From positions 1 through 64,000 of IMG/VR virus record IMGVR_UViG_3300010354_000060: a DNA stretch of 64,000 nucleotides; one strand, given 5' to 3'. Below the pieces are notes generated by a model, which was not told the DNA's origin, did not search any database, and saw only the letters and a program-made list of their open reading frames with translations. This document shows, piece after piece, positions 36,934-44,454 of the stretch. The translations under genes and the position numbers were made by a program. Position 1 is the stretch's first letter. Each line of letters opens with the position of its first letter. This DNA is from a virus.

Positions 36934-39717
36934 CTACTGACTCATACTAATGGATTCGTAAGGATCAGAAAATCCTCCAGATCCTCCACCACCAAAAGAA
37001 TCTCCCATTGGAATTGGAATTGGTTGGACAATTGTATTTTGGCCAGAATCTTCAACCTCAACTTCTTGAGTTGCTCCAAATTCATACCCAGCATAAGTTG
37101 AGAGGATTTGCATTAAACTCTGAGCAGCACTTCTTCTCTGTGAGATATTCTCAGTATCGTTGAGAATATCCATAAATCTTCTGCCGAAAAGATCAACAGA
37201 GTCTTTATCAATTACATATTCTCCTGGGTGAGTAGTAATATTCCCACCTCTACCAACAAAACCACCACCAAAATATGCTACGTGAACATGATCACTGTGT
37301 CCAGGATCTCCTGCCTTTAAAAGTTCAACAGGTCTTACTCCTTTCATTCTATTGAAATCGGAAATTACTTTAAGAATTGGTCCTTGTTCCCAAGAATATG
37401 CACCAATATCAATTGCTCTTCCCTCATAATGGAATGATTTATTTGCGTGGGTTCCTTTTACACCACCAAATTCTGGGTGTTCTTTAACTGCTAAAAACTG
37501 CTCAGGAGTCTTTAATCTTTGATATATAAATCTTCCAAGTTCTCCAGCAATTTTACTTCCTGCAGAACCATATCCCTTTCCAAGTTGAGAAGATCCACCA
37601 CCTCCAGGAGTGAATGTTCCTTTTTCACCTCTTTGAAGTGCTGCCAGAATTCTTGCAGATTGTTTCCAACGATCACCTTCTATTCCCCATCCAATATACT
37701 TATATGATGCTCTCTTAAGTTGTTCTTCAGTAGACTTTGGATCCAGGAATTCGTCAAGAAGCCCATACTGCTTCAATTCTTCTTTGATCCATTTAACCTG
37801 CTCAGCGTTGCTTGCCTTTTCAAGTGGTTTACCTAAGAATTTCTCTGCATTTGTAATTCTTGTACGGTTCCAACTAATAAGTCCTTTGTTAGTTCCTGCG
37901 CCATCATTTAAAACCCAAGGAGTTCTTTGACCTTTCCATGCAGATTCTGCTTGAACATTTCCAGCAAGAATAGCAGCAGCAAGCATTGGGAATCCTGCTG
38001 CCATAAACAATCTTGCACCGCCGACAGCATCAGATGCGTCACCACCCAAATCTTCTCCAGGAACCATTGGTTGTTGACCAGGGGTTTTTTCTCTTTCTAT
38101 AGTATATTCCTTCAACCCCAATTGTTTCATCAACTCATTAATACTTTCATCAATTTTAGCAGAAGAACTTTCTTCAACAGATTTAGAAATTACTTTTGTT
38201 AGATCTTCTCCACCCATAAACATAGCAGAGTCAACACTGCCACCAGAAGCAAAGGCACCACCAGTTCTCATGACATCTGAACTAAATGTTCTCTGCATCC
38301 ATGCACTTAATGTTGATCCAATGTTGTCATAATCAACAGTTGATGGTTTTTCTCCAAGCAGAACTTTAGTTGCTATTGCAAAGAATGGTCCAAAGAATGG
38401 AATCTCTGATGTTGCATCATGAGATTTTTCCATATATTTCAATGGACTCATTGTTTGATCGTCTTTTTGTTCTGGGAAAATTTTCTTAATTACTTTTTCT
38501 CCACCAACATCAGCACCTGGTTTTACTTTTGTTGGTTTTGCTGTAACTCTTCTTACTGCTTTGGATTTCTTTACAGTTCTTCTAACTCCACCAGTTAATC
38601 TTCCACCTCTAGTTGCTGGACCACCAGTTGCCATTTTAGCAGATGCTCCAGCAAAGGCATCATACAGTGCTCCACCAGCCCAATCTCCCATCCAACCACC
38701 AAGAGCAGATCCAATCACACCACCTAGAAAGGTCCCTGCAAAGGGAACTACGCTGCCGATAGCACCAGCAACAAGACCACCTAACGCACCTCCAGCGGTG
38801 GCACCCGCTGCTCTTGCCGCTGCCCTTCCTGGGTCTTCTCCAAGCAGTATATTGATTCCAAAGTCAATCAGTCCACCAATAATAGGTATCTTCTGCAATA
38901 CTTTAGAGAGAGTTCTGGTAACTCCTTGTGCTGCCATTCCACCTGCTTTACCAGCAATTGATATTCCTAAACGAGTTCCTGCTCTACCAACTCCTCTACC
39001 TAAAATTCCAGCAGCACCTTTTTTAGCACCCTCTCCTATCAAGGTCTTCCATAATCCTCTGGACTTCAAAATAATCATTGAGAGGATCAAAGCACCATTT
39101 ACAAAAGTTGCAAATGCACCTGTAAATTTATCAAATAGTTCTAAAGTCCTATCACCACCAACATTTTTAATAAATCCACGAACAGAATCTACAGCCTTAT
39201 ATCCCCAATCAATAAAAGTCACTAAGGCATTGAATAATGCTCCACTTATATTCACAATAAAATCAAATGCTGGTGCTATGATTTTTACAAATCCAATAAG
39301 TTTTGGAAGTAGAGGTATTAATCTATAGACAACATACCCAAGAAGAATATTGAATATAAAACTTTTGATCCTATCAAGAAATCCAATCTTAGGTGCTTTT
39401 ATTAATCCACTTTTCTCTTTCTTCTCATCTGGTTTTTCTTCTAACTTTTCTTCTCTCTCTTTAAATTTTTTCTTCTCTTTTTGCTTTCTTAAATTTTCAA
39501 GTTCTTTTTTCTGAAGTAGAGTTGAATCCTTTAACAGATCACTAACATTAATTAATTTTTCTTTAATAGTAAATAGACTACTTGTGGATATGGTAATAGA
39601 TCCACCATTACCTGTAGATAAAGATTCTGGTTTGATCTTATCCGCAGAAGATCCCCCACCAAGAAGTTTAACTGGGTTTATCTTTTTAGATCCTGGAAGT
39701 AGTGCTTTAGGTGCCAT
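36934..39717 (-). CDS. Tape-measure-like protein with lysozyme and M15 peptidase domains
   Basis: 927 residues. Lys/Glu-rich coiled coil at ~45-105; hydrophobic, membrane-like helices at ~110-260 and ~280-350. The catalytic part starts near 560. It holds a tail-lysozyme-like domain with E591 in GNVQAESAW and GLISWNRTRI. An M15-type zinc peptidase domain follows, with SFHYEGRAIDIG (H763, D770) and HSDHVHVAY (H810, H812). Near the C-terminus is TTHPGEYVIDKDSVDLFG, similar to a motif in the neighbouring tape-measure-like protein. Likely ejected or exposed at the tail tip and used to open the host wall. Six bases after the previous gene. Confidence 0.75.
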   Translation of the reverse strand: MAPKALLPGSKKINPVKLLGGGSSADKIKPESLSTGNGGSITISTSSLFTIKEKLINVSDLLKDSTLLQKKELENLRKQKEKKKFKEREEKLEEKPDEKKEKSGLIKAPKIGFLDRIKSFIFNILLGYVVYRLIPLLPKLIGFVKIIAPAFDFIVNISGALFNALVTFIDWGYKAVDSVRGFIKNVGGDRTLELFDKFTGAFATFVNGALILSMIILKSRGLWKTLIGEGAKKGAAGILGRGVGRAGTRLGISIAGKAGGMAAQGVTRTLSKVLQKIPIIGGLIDFGINILLGEDPGRAAARAAGATAGGALGGLVAGAIGSVVPFAGTFLGGVIGSALGGWMGDWAGGALYDAFAGASAKMATGGPATRGGRLTGGVRRTVKKSKAVRRVTAKPTKVKPGADVGGEKVIKKIFPEQKDDQTMSPLKYMEKSHDATSEIPFFGPFFAIATKVLLGEKPSTVDYDNIGSTLSAWMQRTFSSDVMRTGGAFASGGSVDSAMFMGGEDLTKVISKSVEESSSAKIDESINELMKQLGLKEYTIEREKTPGQQPMVPGEDLGGDASDAVGGARLFMAAGFPMLAAAILAGNVQAESAWKGQRTPWVLNDGAGTNKGLISWNRTRITNAEKFLGKPLEKASNAEQVKWIKEELKQYGLLDEFLDPKSTEEQLKRASYKYIGWGIEGDRWKQSARILAALQRGEKGTFTPGGGGSSQLGKGYGSAGSKIAGELGRFIYQRLKTPEQFLAVKEHPEFGGVKGTHANKSFHYEGRAIDIGAYSWEQGPILKVISDFNRMKGVRPVELLKAGDPGHSDHVHVAYFGGGFVGRGGNITTHPGEYVIDKDSVDLFGRRFMDILNDTENISQRRSAAQSLMQILSTYAGYEFGATQEVEVEDSGQNTIVQPIPIPMGDSFGGGGSGGFSDPYESISMSQ

Positions 39718-39723
39718 ATCTTA

Positions 39724-42210
39724 TTAGAAAATCCCCAAAATCTTTGCTGTTCTTGGTCTATCCGATGCCTTACAAGTTGCACCAAATCTTGGAACTTTAG
39801 TTCCAGATCTCTTATTAATTCCACCAGAACCAGTTCCAATTGTATTTGCTTTTGTTCTTACAACTACTTTTGGTTTTGCTGGTGGTGTTGGTGCCTTTAG
39901 TTTTGGTTTGGTTTTTGCCAACTGCACTTGAGTTCTTCCACTTGTTGGAGTTGGTGATTGCTTACTGAGAACCTGTTTTCCAGTGTTATCAACTTGACCT
40001 ACAACTCTCCCACCTCTATCTCTAATCAAATTCTTATCTTTAGTTCTTTTATCCTTATAAGATAGATCATTCTTTGCTTGAGAAAGATTTAGATTTAATT
40101 TCTTGAATTGTTTAGAAATTTCATTATCTGACATTCCACTTGCTCTATAATATTGAAGAGAATTCATAGCAGCCGTTCTCATCTTCTCTTTATTTGAGGC
40201 ATCTTCACGACTCTTAGCACCACTTGGATTAAAGAAATCTCCAATGTTCTCTAAGAAACCTTTACTTCTTTGCTCAGGTCTCTTATAGAATGGTTTGCCC
40301 CTATAGAAAGAAAGATGCCCGACAAATGGTTTTCCATCTGATCCAGTCATAACCTGAGTTTTTGGTAAACCTCTCTTATCAATCTTATTCAGTCCACCAC
40401 CACCCATCAATCCACCACCAGCTCCCATATAAGATTTGTTTGTAGCACCAAATCTGTCAGTCTGACTTGCTAATCCTTTAGCATAATTGGATGTGTAGAT
40501 TACATCTCCACCTCTTACTTGTCCAAAGTATCTCATTCCACCAATGGTAATCTCTGGTTCCCATCCAGTTTTTGCTGCACCAGGAACAACTACAGATTGT
40601 CTTCCTTTGTAAGTGGCACCAAATCCTTTTCCAATCTTAGTGCCAAATGAGGAACCTTTAATATTAATACCCTTTCCAGAAGACAGTGCTCTTTGTGCTT
40701 GGATCTGTCTTTCAATTCTCTTAAATCTTTCTTCAAAATAATCTTTTCTAAAATCACTTGATCCAGACATTGATGAAGGTTTCACGTCTTTAGTTGGATC
40801 TGGTCTTCCTAATCCATAAGACTCTTTTTCTTTCTCAATAGTTTTTGGTTCTTTACCAATTAAACCACCACCATAAGCATGTGGAATTCCTTTGGCAATT
40901 TTGGGGCGATTGGTTCCACCACCAGCAGCATTCATTGCCTCAAGAGTATCTACGCCATACTTCTGTACAGCACCACGAGACATGACAAATTCACCATCAG
41001 AAAGCATGGCAGGAATTTTATCAACTCCTTTCTCACCACTTACAAATCCTTGGATTTGACCTGCTAAATCACCGCCTTTACTGCCTGCTACCGCACCTAA
41101 TATAGATCCAAGTGGTCCAAGAGCAGACCCCGCAGCAGCACCTATTGCAGACGCCAATGCTTTATTTTTGAGTAGTCCTTCTTTTAATCCACCAAGAAGT
41201 CTTGCAAGTCCACCACCCGCAAACTTCTGAGTTGGTTGTGGTGGTTCTTTCTTTGCTTCTTCTGGAGCATCTTCTTGTTGTGGTGTTACTTTAGCAGCGT
41301 CATCTTTCTTTTTGTCTGCTAATGTTGCGGCACCACCAAGTAATCCACCACCAATAATTGCTCCAAGTGCTACTGGATTTCTACTTACTAATGCAGCAAT
41401 TCCTCTTAGTAGAATGCCAGTAATGTTTGCAACAAATCCACCAAGTCCTGTTCCAAAAATTAAAAATGCACCAATAAGAGCAGGCCACCAGTCACCTAAG
41501 AATCTAATAATACTTCTTACTTTTTGTTGATTATCTTTATCACCAAACCACCCTATTAACTTATAGACCATTCTTCCCATCAGAAGAATTACAAAGAAGT
41601 CTATAATTTTTTGAAGAAGATTCTTGACTGGAGCAAGCATCTTCTCAGCAACCTTCTGAGCAAACCCAAATTTCTTTTCAAGACCTGCTTCTAATCCAGC
41701 CCTTGCTTCACCCTCTTTATTTTTTCTATCTTGTTCTGTCTTCTTTCTTAAGAGATCATTTTGTAACGAGAGACTGTCAAGAATGTTTGAAAGAATTCCA
41801 GAGATTTCTTCCAGGGGATTTGATTCTGCTGCTGGTGGAAGTGCAAGTGGTTTGATTCCACCCAAAAGTTTTTGGGTATTTAATTTTATTCCAGCAGCAG
41901 ATCCTTTCTTAAAATTCTCTGCAGATATTTTTTTCTTCTTTACTTTAAATCTTCCCTTCTTTCCTTTGACTCTTTTCCACTCGTCAGTTAGAAGTTCGGT
42001 TTCTGCTGTGGGAATTTTAGACTTTGCCATTCTGGCAGCAGCCATTCTCTCTCTTAAAAGAGAAGCATACGTATCATAATCAATGTCAAAAATATCCTCA
42101 AGTCCTAATAACCTGAGGATTCTTTCATCTATTTTTTCGTTGACGAGATCAGTCCCTATTTTCCCAGTGTAGGGAACCAATGCATTGGTTTTAGAAGAAC
42201 TGACCGCCAT
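39724..42210 (-). CDS. Tape-measure-like tail protein (828 aa)
   Basis: N-terminal basic, helical region with KKGRFKVKKKK; coiled-coil-like stretch ~130-190; several hydrophobic segments (~200-330: IIDFFVILLMGRMVYKLI, LIGAFLIFGTGLGGFVANI, AIIGGGLLGGAATLA). The motif AMLSDGEFVMSRGAVQKYG (~440) is typical of tape-measure and tail-tip proteins. The rest is basic and Gly/Lys-rich. Long helical, membrane-active character and a place directly downstream of gp26 and its frameshift ORF fit the tape-measure role. T4 gp29 is the equivalent, though I see no clear sequence match. Confidence 0.65.
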   Translation of the reverse strand: MAVSSSKTNALVPYTGKIGTDLVNEKIDERILRLLGLEDIFDIDYDTYASLLRERMAAARMAKSKIPTAETELLTDEWKRVKGKKGRFKVKKKKISAENFKKGSAAGIKLNTQKLLGGIKPLALPPAAESNPLEEISGILSNILDSLSLQNDLLRKKTEQDRKNKEGEARAGLEAGLEKKFGFAQKVAEKMLAPVKNLLQKIIDFFVILLMGRMVYKLIGWFGDKDNQQKVRSIIRFLGDWWPALIGAFLIFGTGLGGFVANITGILLRGIAALVSRNPVALGAIIGGGLLGGAATLADKKKDDAAKVTPQQEDAPEEAKKEPPQPTQKFAGGGLARLLGGLKEGLLKNKALASAIGAAAGSALGPLGSILGAVAGSKGGDLAGQIQGFVSGEKGVDKIPAMLSDGEFVMSRGAVQKYGVDTLEAMNAAGGGTNRPKIAKGIPHAYGGGLIGKEPKTIEKEKESYGLGRPDPTKDVKPSSMSGSSDFRKDYFEERFKRIERQIQAQRALSSGKGINIKGSSFGTKIGKGFGATYKGRQSVVVPGAAKTGWEPEITIGGMRYFGQVRGGDVIYTSNYAKGLASQTDRFGATNKSYMGAGGGLMGGGGLNKIDKRGLPKTQVMTGSDGKPFVGHLSFYRGKPFYKRPEQRSKGFLENIGDFFNPSGAKSREDASNKEKMRTAAMNSLQYYRASGMSDNEISKQFKKLNLNLSQAKNDLSYKDKRTKDKNLIRDRGGRVVGQVDNTGKQVLSKQSPTPTSGRTQVQLAKTKPKLKAPTPPAKPKVVVRTKANTIGTGSGGINKRSGTKVPRFGATCKASDRPRTAKILGIF

Positions 42211-42370
42211 TTGCTTGCTGCTGTTTTAATTTTTCTTCTTCAAGATGCTCTTTCAGCAACTCAACATATACGTCTCTTTCCCACGGAATCATATTTTCAA
42301 TCTCCGTTAATGAGTATTTATGGTACTGCATTAAGGCAAAATTCAAACGAAAGTAGTTCTCAAGGTCCAT
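42191..42370 (-). CDS. gp51-like ORF (59 aa), probably a -1 frameshift extension of gp26
   Basis: Open frame starting MDLENYFRLNFALMQYHKYS and ending QQQANGGQFF. The segment IENMIPWERDVYVELLKEHLEEEK is typical of short tail-assembly partners. The ATG has no visible ribosome-binding site. The frame is open upstream of the ATG (…FFRIALVH) back through a T TTT TTC site at the end of gp26, so it is best read as the tail of a gp26 fusion of about 303 residues. In T4, gene 51 follows gene 26. The stop overlaps the tape-measure start by 20 bases. Confidence 0.65.
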   Translation of the reverse strand: MDLENYFRLNFALMQYHKYSLTEIENMIPWERDVYVELLKEHLEEEKLKQQQANGGQFF

Positions 42371-42381
42371 GTGGACCAGGG

Positions 42382-43101
42382 CTATGCGAAAAAAGACGCT
42401 AACCCTTCCAGAACCACTTCACTTTCTACGTTAGTTTTTGGATTCTTTACTGTAATTTTGTGCGAAAGTTTTGGCATCGTCTCAAAGAATGTCTCAATTT
42501 CTTTGAATTGTGATGAATTCATTTGCTCCAGGAATTCAAGAAGTTCCTTTTTGCTTACATCAGCTGCTGCCCAAACTTCATCTTCTGTATAAATCTTATC
42601 AATACAAGACGCAATCAAATCAAATGATTGGTCCATAGCATTGTCACTCTTAAAGTCAAAATTTGCTTTAATGAATTGATCCAATGATGGATACTTCATC
42701 TCCATCATGATTGAACTATCTACTTTGATCTTGTTTGTATGCTCTTCGTTCCTTTGAACTTTAATATCATCCAAATCAATTTGGACTGATGTTGGAGTTT
42801 CTTCATCATCGGGACAAATGATATTAACTTCAATTTCTTCACCAACAGACTTGCCACGAATATTAAGGAACAAATATTCAATATCAAAAGTCGGCAGTGA
42901 TTCTACTTTGATATTTTTTGTAAGAATACAGTTCTTAATTACTGTCTTAATCGCATTAGAAATTTGCTTTGTATCTTCGCTTTCTAAAGCAATAACCAAT
43001 ACTTTTTCCTCTCTTACAAGGAAGGGTCTATACTTAACAGTCTCTCCAGTTGAGGGCAACTCAAGTTCATATGACGGTGTAGATATCTTTGGTAATGGCA
43101 T
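42382..43101 (-). CDS. 26: Baseplate hub/tail-assembly protein gp26
   Basis: 239 residues. Opens MPLPKISTPSYELELPSTGETVKYRPFLVREEKVLVIALES, which is the signature start of the T4-like gp26 family (T4 gp26 is 208 residues). The middle has NIICPDDEETPTSVQIDLDDI, a Cys-containing beta hairpin, and the C-terminus is helical (KKELLEFLEQMNSSQFKEIETFFETMPKL). Immediately precedes the tape-measure genes, the classical place for tail-assembly chaperones. A slippery site at its end probably yields a longer form. Confidence 0.85.
   Translation of the reverse strand: MPLPKISTPSYELELPSTGETVKYRPFLVREEKVLVIALESEDTKQISNAIKTVIKNCILTKNIKVESLPTFDIEYLFLNIRGKSVGEEIEVNIICPDDEETPTSVQIDLDDIKVQRNEEHTNKIKVDSSIMMEMKYPSLDQFIKANFDFKSDNAMDQSFDLIASCIDKIYTEDEVWAAADVSKKELLEFLEQMNSSQFKEIETFFETMPKLSHKITVKNPKTNVESEVVLEGLASFFA
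42388..42394 (-). promoter_or_regulatory. Probable -1 ribosomal frameshift site T TTT TTC
   Basis: On the minus strand gp26 ends with codons TCT TTT TTC GCA TAG. T TTT TTC fits the X XXY YYZ slippery pattern in the right phase. Slipping back one base avoids the stop and enters the gp51-like frame. Ten bases downstream lies a GC-rich hairpin, GGTCC-ACAT-GGACC, that could stimulate slippage. See the finding. Confidence 0.65.
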
Positions 43102-43145: not shown

Positions 43146-43970
43146 TTAGAATAGTTTTAAACCCGAAGAATATGCAGTTTTGATATCTATTGCATTTCCA
43201 GATGCACCTGCAGCAGTAAATGGAACTCCACCTGTTGTTGTATAATTTCCAAAATTTAACCCGAGATCAGTCGTATATGCTTTGTTAATTTGTGCCTGAG
43301 TTAAAGGATTTACATTACTGAAATTATTGGTAGTAGTATTACTCTTAGCTGCTTCTCCTCCACTACCTTGAGGTTCAACATAATATCTTAAATAAGTAAG
43401 AGAAACTGAGCATTTCAATAAAGAAGACGAATCATATGATATTGGAATAGATGCTACAGAAATTGGGAATGGATCTACAAATACATATTGTAATTCTGAC
43501 TTATAATCTCGTTCAAATTTTGTAATTTTTAAAGGAGACCCTACATATTCTGAATGATATCGCATTGAATATGTGTAAACTGAACTTTTAACACTATTAC
43601 CACCATTTTCGGATATTTGCTCATTAGATGCAAATTTCATCCAAGTTTCAAAAAATCTAATGGGAAGATAATTATCAGCATCAACATAAAATGTTAGATC
43701 AATTCTATCATCAAATACTCTCCTGTGAACATGCCTTTCAGTTACACCATGAAAATCATTATTAATTTCCATGGTTGCTAAACTTGATCCAGGTAAAGAA
43801 GCCTCAGAACAAGATAAATGAAGTCTAATTTGATCAAAACTTAGATTATAATCACGAAAATCTCTCCATGCACCACTTAGCGGTTGTCCAATAAAAACAT
43901 CATAATGAGATGTTAAAGCTGGGCGTAAAAGATTTGCTTTTATGTTTGATATACCCTGTGGCGTAGGCAT
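43146..43970 (-). CDS. Baseplate tail-tube initiator-like protein (gp54-like)
   Basis: 274 residues with tail-tube-type beta organisation: HYDVFIGQPLSGAWRDF, VTERHVHRRVFDDRIDLTFYVDADNYLPIRFFETWMKF, then VFVDPFPISVASIPISYDSSSLLKCSVSLTYLRYYVEP. The 'linear movement, then tail-tube beta-sandwich' layout is that of gp54/gp48/gp19 family members. Placed between gp26 and the divergent gp4-gp48-gp53 block. Called gp54-like with reserve. Confidence 0.55.
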   Translation of the reverse strand: MPTPQGISNIKANLLRPALTSHYDVFIGQPLSGAWRDFRDYNLSFDQIRLHLSCSEASLPGSSLATMEINNDFHGVTERHVHRRVFDDRIDLTFYVDADNYLPIRFFETWMKFASNEQISENGGNSVKSSVYTYSMRYHSEYVGSPLKITKFERDYKSELQYVFVDPFPISVASIPISYDSSSLLKCSVSLTYLRYYVEPQGSGGEAAKSNTTTNNFSNVNPLTQAQINKAYTTDLGLNFGNYTTTGGVPFTAAGASGNAIDIKTAYSSGLKLF

Positions 43971-44010: not shown

Positions 44011-44454
44011 ATGGCAGAAAGTATTAAAAGTAGATACATCCCATCTTATCCGCAGAAATACAAAGGAAATCCAAATAATATTATCTGTAGAAGTAGTTGG
44101 GAAAGAAAGTTTTGTCGTTGGTGTGACTTGAATGAAAATATTTTGGAGTGGGGAAGTGAAGAATTTTTCATACCATATCGTTCTCCAGTTGATAACAGAG
44201 TTCATAGATATTTTCCAGACTTTATAATTAAGATCAGAGAACAGACTGGAAACATCAAATCATATGTGATTGAAGTGAAACCAAAAAAACAAACCGTTCC
44301 ACCAAAACAAAAATCAAGAGTTACTAAATCATATCTTTATGAAGCAAAAACCTATGCTGTAAACCAAGCAAAATGGAAAGCAGCAGATGAATGGTGTAAG
44401 GATAGAATGTTAGAATTCAAAGTTATCACAGAAGAAGAACTGGGTATTAACTAA
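44011..44454 (+). CDS. 4: Head completion protein gp4
   Basis: 147 residues, close to T4 gp4 (150). Motifs KSRYIPSYPQKYKGNPNNIICRSSWERKFCRWCDLNENILEWGSEEFFIPYRSPVDNRVHRYFPDFII and VIEVKPKKQT. The RYFPDF...IEVKP pattern resembles the PD-(D/E)xK nuclease core found in this family. In T4 the protein finishes the head before tail joining and may trim the packaged DNA end. First gene of the plus-strand late block. The stop overlaps the next start (TAATG). Confidence 0.85.
   Translation: MAESIKSRYIPSYPQKYKGNPNNIICRSSWERKFCRWCDLNENILEWGSEEFFIPYRSPVDNRVHRYFPDFIIKIREQTGNIKSYVIEVKPKKQTVPPKQKSRVTKSYLYEAKTYAVNQAKWKAADEWCKDRMLEFKVITEEELGIN

Follow-up and report, generated by a model that had tools for sequence, protein, structure and literature searches.

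How is the gp51-like protein of this phage translated, and what purpose would it serve? In the 64,000 nucleotides of viral DNA analysed here (hereafter, the window; positions 1 to 64,000 of IMG/VR virus record IMGVR_UViG_3300010354_000060), the gp26 gene is followed by a 59-codon gp51-like open reading frame (ORF) that lies in the −1 frame relative to gp26. An earlier, sequence-only reading proposed that the two are joined by −1 ribosomal frameshifting and that both products act as chaperones of the tape-measure protein. The analysis presented here leads to much the same view. With a probability of roughly 93%, judged from sequence comparison and by analogy with lambda G/GT, the gp26 mRNA carries a programmed −1 frameshift, gp26 being the short tail assembly chaperone (TAC-N) and the gp26-51 fusion the long one (TAC-NC). 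What was observed is the sequence signal and how widely it is conserved, an open −1 frame with coding selection acting there, and an in-frame equivalent in T4.

Gene Order and the Putative Chaperone Role

The window's gp26 matches the Pfam family T4_baseplate (PF12322) with an E-value of 2.9e-76 (256 bits versus a curated cut-off of 24.5) and phrog_150 with an E-value of 9.7e-81. There is one PF12322 copy in the 82.5-kb virus record containing the window. For the 59-aa ORF, the match is to phrog_634 (gp51, "baseplate hub assembly catalyst"), with an E-value of 1.1e-26. Directly upstream of gp26 lies a tail tube protein gene, while the gp51 end overlaps by 20 bases an 828-aa gene that matches several tape-measure families, weakly (Table 1). 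The order of tail tube gene, gp26, gp51, and large tape-measure-like gene corresponds to the position of a TAC pair.

Table 1. Features of the gp26 locus, in window positions.
Feature	Coordinates	Strand	Remarks
Tail tube protein gene	43146..43970	minus	Directly upstream of gp26; PF23849 Phage_TTP_2, E 1.9e-13; phrog_45 tail tube, E 2e-31
gp26 gene (putative TAC-N)	42382..43101	minus	239 aa
Whole open −1 frame	42191..42418	minus	Begins past the TGA at 42421-42419 and ends with the gp51 stop; translation would cover it from the slip onward
Internal Shine-Dalgarno-like GGAAGGG	42403..42409	minus	Candidate stimulator, 8 nt ahead of the heptamer
Slippery heptamer T TTT TTC, zero frame	42388..42394	minus	One codon ahead of the gp26 stop
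Hairpin GGTCC-ACAT-GGACC	42364..42377	minus	10 nt past the heptamer; holds the gp51 ATG; candidate stimulator
gp51-like ORF, 59 codons from ATG	42191..42370	minus	C-terminal domain of the predicted fusion (TAC-C)
828-aa gene, candidate tape measure	39724..42210	minus	phrog_35029, E 6.6e-61 (function unknown)
927-aa gene, lysozyme-like domain	36934..39717	minus	PF18013, E 4.3e-5 (sub-threshold); phrog_167, E 1.4e-7

Two further genes of the neighborhood deserve mention. The 927-aa gene also has several weak tape-measure matches, so that two large candidate clients for the chaperone would be available. On the plus strand, at 44011-44454, a gp4-like head completion gene includes an endonuclease domain of TnsA-like type (PF08722, E 3e-23).

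The chaperone role is backed by gene position and, weakly, by the predicted fold. For the AlphaFold model of gp26 (pLDDT 85), the PDB offers a single plausible match, 2ob9, the tail assembly chaperone of HK97. Given an E-value of 0.58 (prob 0.80; TM-score 0.24 by query and 0.49 by target), this fold evidence is only suggestive, and 2ob9 differs from gp26 in length, with 107 residues compared with 239. A sequence search for a solved structure of the gp26 family found none, the best E-value of 0.09 being that of a chance match, and a search of NCBIfam returned no match.

The resemblance to lambda gpG/gpGT is one of arrangement. It comprises two overlapping ORFs in a series running from the tail tube to the tape-measure genes, a −1 shift late in the first ORF, and what would be a short major and a long minor product. 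The short and the long form also share their N-terminal domain, both in the fusion reading and through T4 gp51, which is discussed below. Unlike lambda, the window virus is a contractile-tailed phage, and the slippery heptamer of lambda G/GT differs from T TTT TTC. Frameshifted tail chaperones were reportedly treated by Xu, Hendrix, and Duda in 2004, grouped with lambda gpG/gpGT.

It is conceivable that the frameshift is real but yields baseplate hub components or hub-assembly enzymes instead of tape-measure chaperones. The T4 names of gp26 and gp51 and the annotation of most records examined point in this direction, and the T4 literature places gp26 possibly in the hub, but also describes it as a hub assembly chaperone. 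The position between tail tube and tape-measure-like genes, the two-product arrangement, the weak match to the HK97 TAC fold, and the published TAC assignment argue for chaperones, and we regard a hub function as improbable.

The Slippery Heptamer, the −1 Frame, and Candidate Stimulators

The gp26 gene ends in the codons GCG TCT TTT TTC GCA TAG, which give the first ORF an in-frame X XXY YYZ heptamer close to its end, exactly as the sequence-only reading had described. A −1 slip at T TTT TTC would carry the ribosome past the gp26 stop into the 59-codon ORF through a frame that is open throughout. The resulting gp26-gp51 fusion would comprise 303 residues, with a junction reading ...SFF-RIALVH-MDLEN and ...SFFRIALVHMDLE... 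as the junction-spanning peptide. The −1 frame had been said to be closed by a TGA about a dozen codons upstream, and the last upstream stop is indeed a TGA, 11 codons ahead of the slip. The hairpin was likewise found where it had been placed. Among the 68 window ORFs of at least 100 aa, seven XXXYYYZ heptamers occur in the last 12 codons, and gp26 is the only ORF (1/68) that combines a heptamer with a −1 frame open for at least 40 codons past the stop.

The comparison with relatives, which had been proposed as a check, revealed broad conservation. TTTTTTC and an open −1 frame are present in 80/80 close relatives (80–88% identical). Among the 262 loci with a readable gp26 end, 259 have an in-frame T TTT TT[C/T] at the same Phe-Phe pair (204/207 once near-copies are removed), and all 259 of these have a −1 frame that continues into a gp51-like tail. 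Both heptamer and open frame are kept down to ≈22–30% protein identity. Phages of other lineages in which the heptamer is present are P-SSM2, S-WAM2, S-B68, phiM7, pf16, PhiW-14, Aeromonas 65.2, Mendera, VH7D, ORM_20, SH-Ab 15599, and Xanthomonas X1; Sf-CH8, S-CREM1, and S-CAM9 have it too. Its position is fixed, while that of the zero-frame stop shifts (0, 1, 2, or 8 codons past the slip).

Two apparent complications were dismissed. A sequencing error at the heptamer in the window is ruled out by the occurrence of the site in all 80 close relatives. The seeming absence of the heptamer from 29 loci was an artefact of restricting the view to the 15 terminal bases; these loci have the heptamer at its usual place, with a zero-frame stop that comes 8 codons later. 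A related observation concerns L203, L232, L235, L242, L245, and their relatives, whose zero-frame stop lies 8 codons past the heptamer, not 1, so that ≈25 bases would be coding in two overlapping frames.

The choice of codons at the heptamer is highly constrained. The codon ahead of Phe-Phe is AAT, AGT, TCT, GAT, GGT, or ACT and always ends in T, even as the encoded residue varies among Asn, Ser, Asp, Gly, and Thr, and the first Phe codon is always TTT; the corresponding log10 p values of −36 and −28 are naive and only a guide, since related sequences are not independent. Phe-Phe pairs elsewhere in the gp26 genes are mostly TTC TTT. As judged from these sequences, protein coding alone would not explain the fixed heptamer codons. 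Past the slip, variation follows the codons of the −1 frame (376/156/853 at positions 1/2/3), and ahead of the gp51 ATG this frame encodes a conserved R-[IVL]-[AGSI]-[LM]-x-H. The −1 frame past the slip is open and under coding selection.

Candidate stimulators lie on both sides of the heptamer. Upstream, pairing with the anti-Shine-Dalgarno sequence reaches its maximum over the unique loci in 9-base windows ending 5–7 bases ahead of the heptamer, with −4.41 kcal/mol versus −3.80 (sd 0.08) for a synonymous-codon null, a comparison that ignores relatedness. Downstream, all five hairpin pairs are intact in 53/65 unique close loci, with nine G-C/A-T double changes, and the paired cells number 305, compared with a mean of 295 and a maximum of 302 in 5000 permutations of the close group. 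In all three groups tested, no stretch has a lower folding z versus shuffles than the one at +3 to +6 (−1.6, −3.5, and −1.3), and a control stretch 90 bases on ranks second lowest in two of them (−1.2 and −2.5). The stems differ in sequence between lineages, and the window's own is modest (z −0.4). Upstream Shine-Dalgarno-like element and downstream structure both recur across lineages above controls, and GGAAGGG and the downstream stem are candidate stimulators of the slip. The z of −2.5 is that of the S-WAM2-like loci L095-L174, whose second stable stretch lies in gp51, ≈90 bases past the heptamer; like the modest stem of the window, it counts against the frameshift reading.

Possible Other Routes to gp51, in the Window and in Relatives

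Could gp51 instead be a small protein of its own, translated from its own ATG (42370) by re-initiation, the heptamer being incidental? The window's ATG lies 11 nt past the gp26 stop, and gp51 could also be translated by re-initiation there. Moreover, an ATG overlaps the gp26 stop in 10/196 unique relatives, Vibrio phages devoid of the heptamer have TAATG, and a separate gp51 is annotated in most records. Nevertheless, no Shine-Dalgarno sequence precedes the window's ATG in TTCGCATAGCCCTGGTCCACATG, which agrees with the earlier remark that the ORF has no ribosome-binding site, and just 6 of the 87 relatives having an early ATG show a Shine-Dalgarno-like 4-mer. Of the 196 unique tails, 72 lack any start codon (ATG, GTG, or TTG) within the 13 codons that follow the slip, so that gp51 cannot be a separate gene in them. 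The conserved −1-frame residues upstream of the ATG and the fixed codon choice of the heptamer also speak against a separate gp51, which is very unlikely as an explanation of this locus. No record examined, whether of a cyanophage or of a relative, annotates a joined gp26-51 product; these records list gp51 as a gene of its own, start it late, or, as in S-WAM2, omit it altogether. The missed or late-start gp51 of L083 (S-WAM2, 1914-2092) and L267 (Sf-CH8, 1768-1899) can be attributed to the joined frame not being recognised.

Least probable of all is that slippage on the T run occurs during transcription and not on the ribosome, giving access to the −1 frame in that way: the run has six T (seven in some relatives), short for RNA polymerase slippage, which would favor longer runs, yet the last base of the heptamer is C in 183/204 unique loci, and a Shine-Dalgarno-like element upstream and a stem downstream fit ribosomal shifting.

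The T4 genes provide a further view of the fusion predicted by ribosomal frameshifting. The sequence-only reading placed T4 gene 51 after gene 26, which is misleading, as the two are separate and divergently transcribed, and T4 gp51 is composed of a gp26-like domain and a gp51 tail. T4 gp26 (208 aa) consists of PF12322 alone, whereas T4 gp51 (249 aa) has PF12322 at residues 1–201 (E 3.9e-52) and phrog_634 over 147–246 (E 1.2e-23). The phrog_150 profile itself extends into the gp51 segment. By its domain composition, T4 gp51 appears as the in-frame counterpart of the gp26-51 fusion. Since it carries both domains, two divergent T4 genes encode, with no frameshift, what the window phage apparently makes by frameshifting. 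In a 32-row tree, the gp26 and gp51 of the T4 group cluster together (91/91, not starred), a placement compatible with a gp26/gp51 duplication in that lineage. The abstract by Vladimirov and co-workers is said to state that frameshifting is apparently conserved in several T4-like groups, genes 26 and 51 serving instead in T4. The frameshift reading has survived every comparative test run, namely the 259/262 loci, the T-ending codon, the missing gp51 starts, and the in-frame equivalent of T4.

The Vibrio phages L089, L091, and L092 have no heptamer (CTTTTC or CTTTTT), and their gp51 frame opens with a TAATG stop-start overlap. Because the tree nests them among heptamer-bearing phages, the heptamer was probably lost there, and a switch from frameshifting to re-initiation is possible. 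In L086, L088, and L090, the heptamer is found together with a TGATG or TAATG overlap at the gp26 stop, and frameshifting and re-initiation could coexist. A tentative and rather doubtful generalization would be that T4-like phages have at least three routes to a short and a long chaperone: an ancestral frameshift at T TTT TT[C/T] with a Shine-Dalgarno-like element and lineage-variable stems, a duplication in the T4 group, and re-initiation in a nested Vibrio clade, perhaps splitting the long form. Should re-initiation in the Vibrio phages be true, covalent fusion would not be a requirement for the TAC-C domain.

Proposed Mechanism, Earlier Reports, and Significance

In the mechanism that we propose, the two tRNA-Phe decoding TTT TTC would slip back by one base on T TTT TTC. 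Slipped ribosomes would bypass the TAG and read the gp51 frame to give the minor 303-aa gp26-51 (TAC-NC), and unslipped ribosomes would give the major 239-aa gp26 (TAC-N). The GGAAGGG upstream and the stem-loop downstream would probably make slipping more frequent. With lambda gpG/gpGT as the model, the gp26 parts may form a coat on the tape-measure protein, and recruitment of tail tube subunits may fall to the gp51 tail, neither gp26 nor gp26-51 being expected to remain in the virion. The occurrence of the slip, its rate, and the chaperone action are the elements that we infer.

The sequence-only reading knew of no description for T4-like cyanophages. This does not hold in full, as T4-like TAC genes with poly-T signals have already been published. 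The same arrangement is reportedly described for T4-like phages by Vladimirov, Gautam & Davidson (2022, Virology 566:9-15). Another paper mentions poly-T −1 frameshift signals in T4-like TAC-N genes, crediting Vladimirov et al. 2022 (PMC12846349), and the PRFect paper (PMC10885494), crediting the same study, mentions some T4-like phages in which frameshifting is replaced by two genes, one for a short TAC and a separate, longer one for a fusion. With the T4-like TACs as these papers cite them from Vladimirov et al. 2022, the present case shares a gp26-family short form, a gp51-bearing long form, and a poly-T signal; it differs in that its source is a genome fragment of a T4-like cyanophage not in culture. 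No direct match came from literature searches for frameshifting described specifically in cyanophages or for T4 genes 26/51. In light of the prior T4-like TAC reports, the finding is real but known in kind. What is added here is a new instance, the breadth of conservation, and two candidate stimulators, that is, the Shine-Dalgarno-like element and the lineage-specific stems.

The frameshift reading would correct the annotation of gp26 and gp51 in cyanophage records. The heptamer signal is among the most conserved features of the gp26 gene in the T4-like phages sampled, and silent changes in a single heptamer would directly probe the influence of the chaperone ratio on tail length and assembly.
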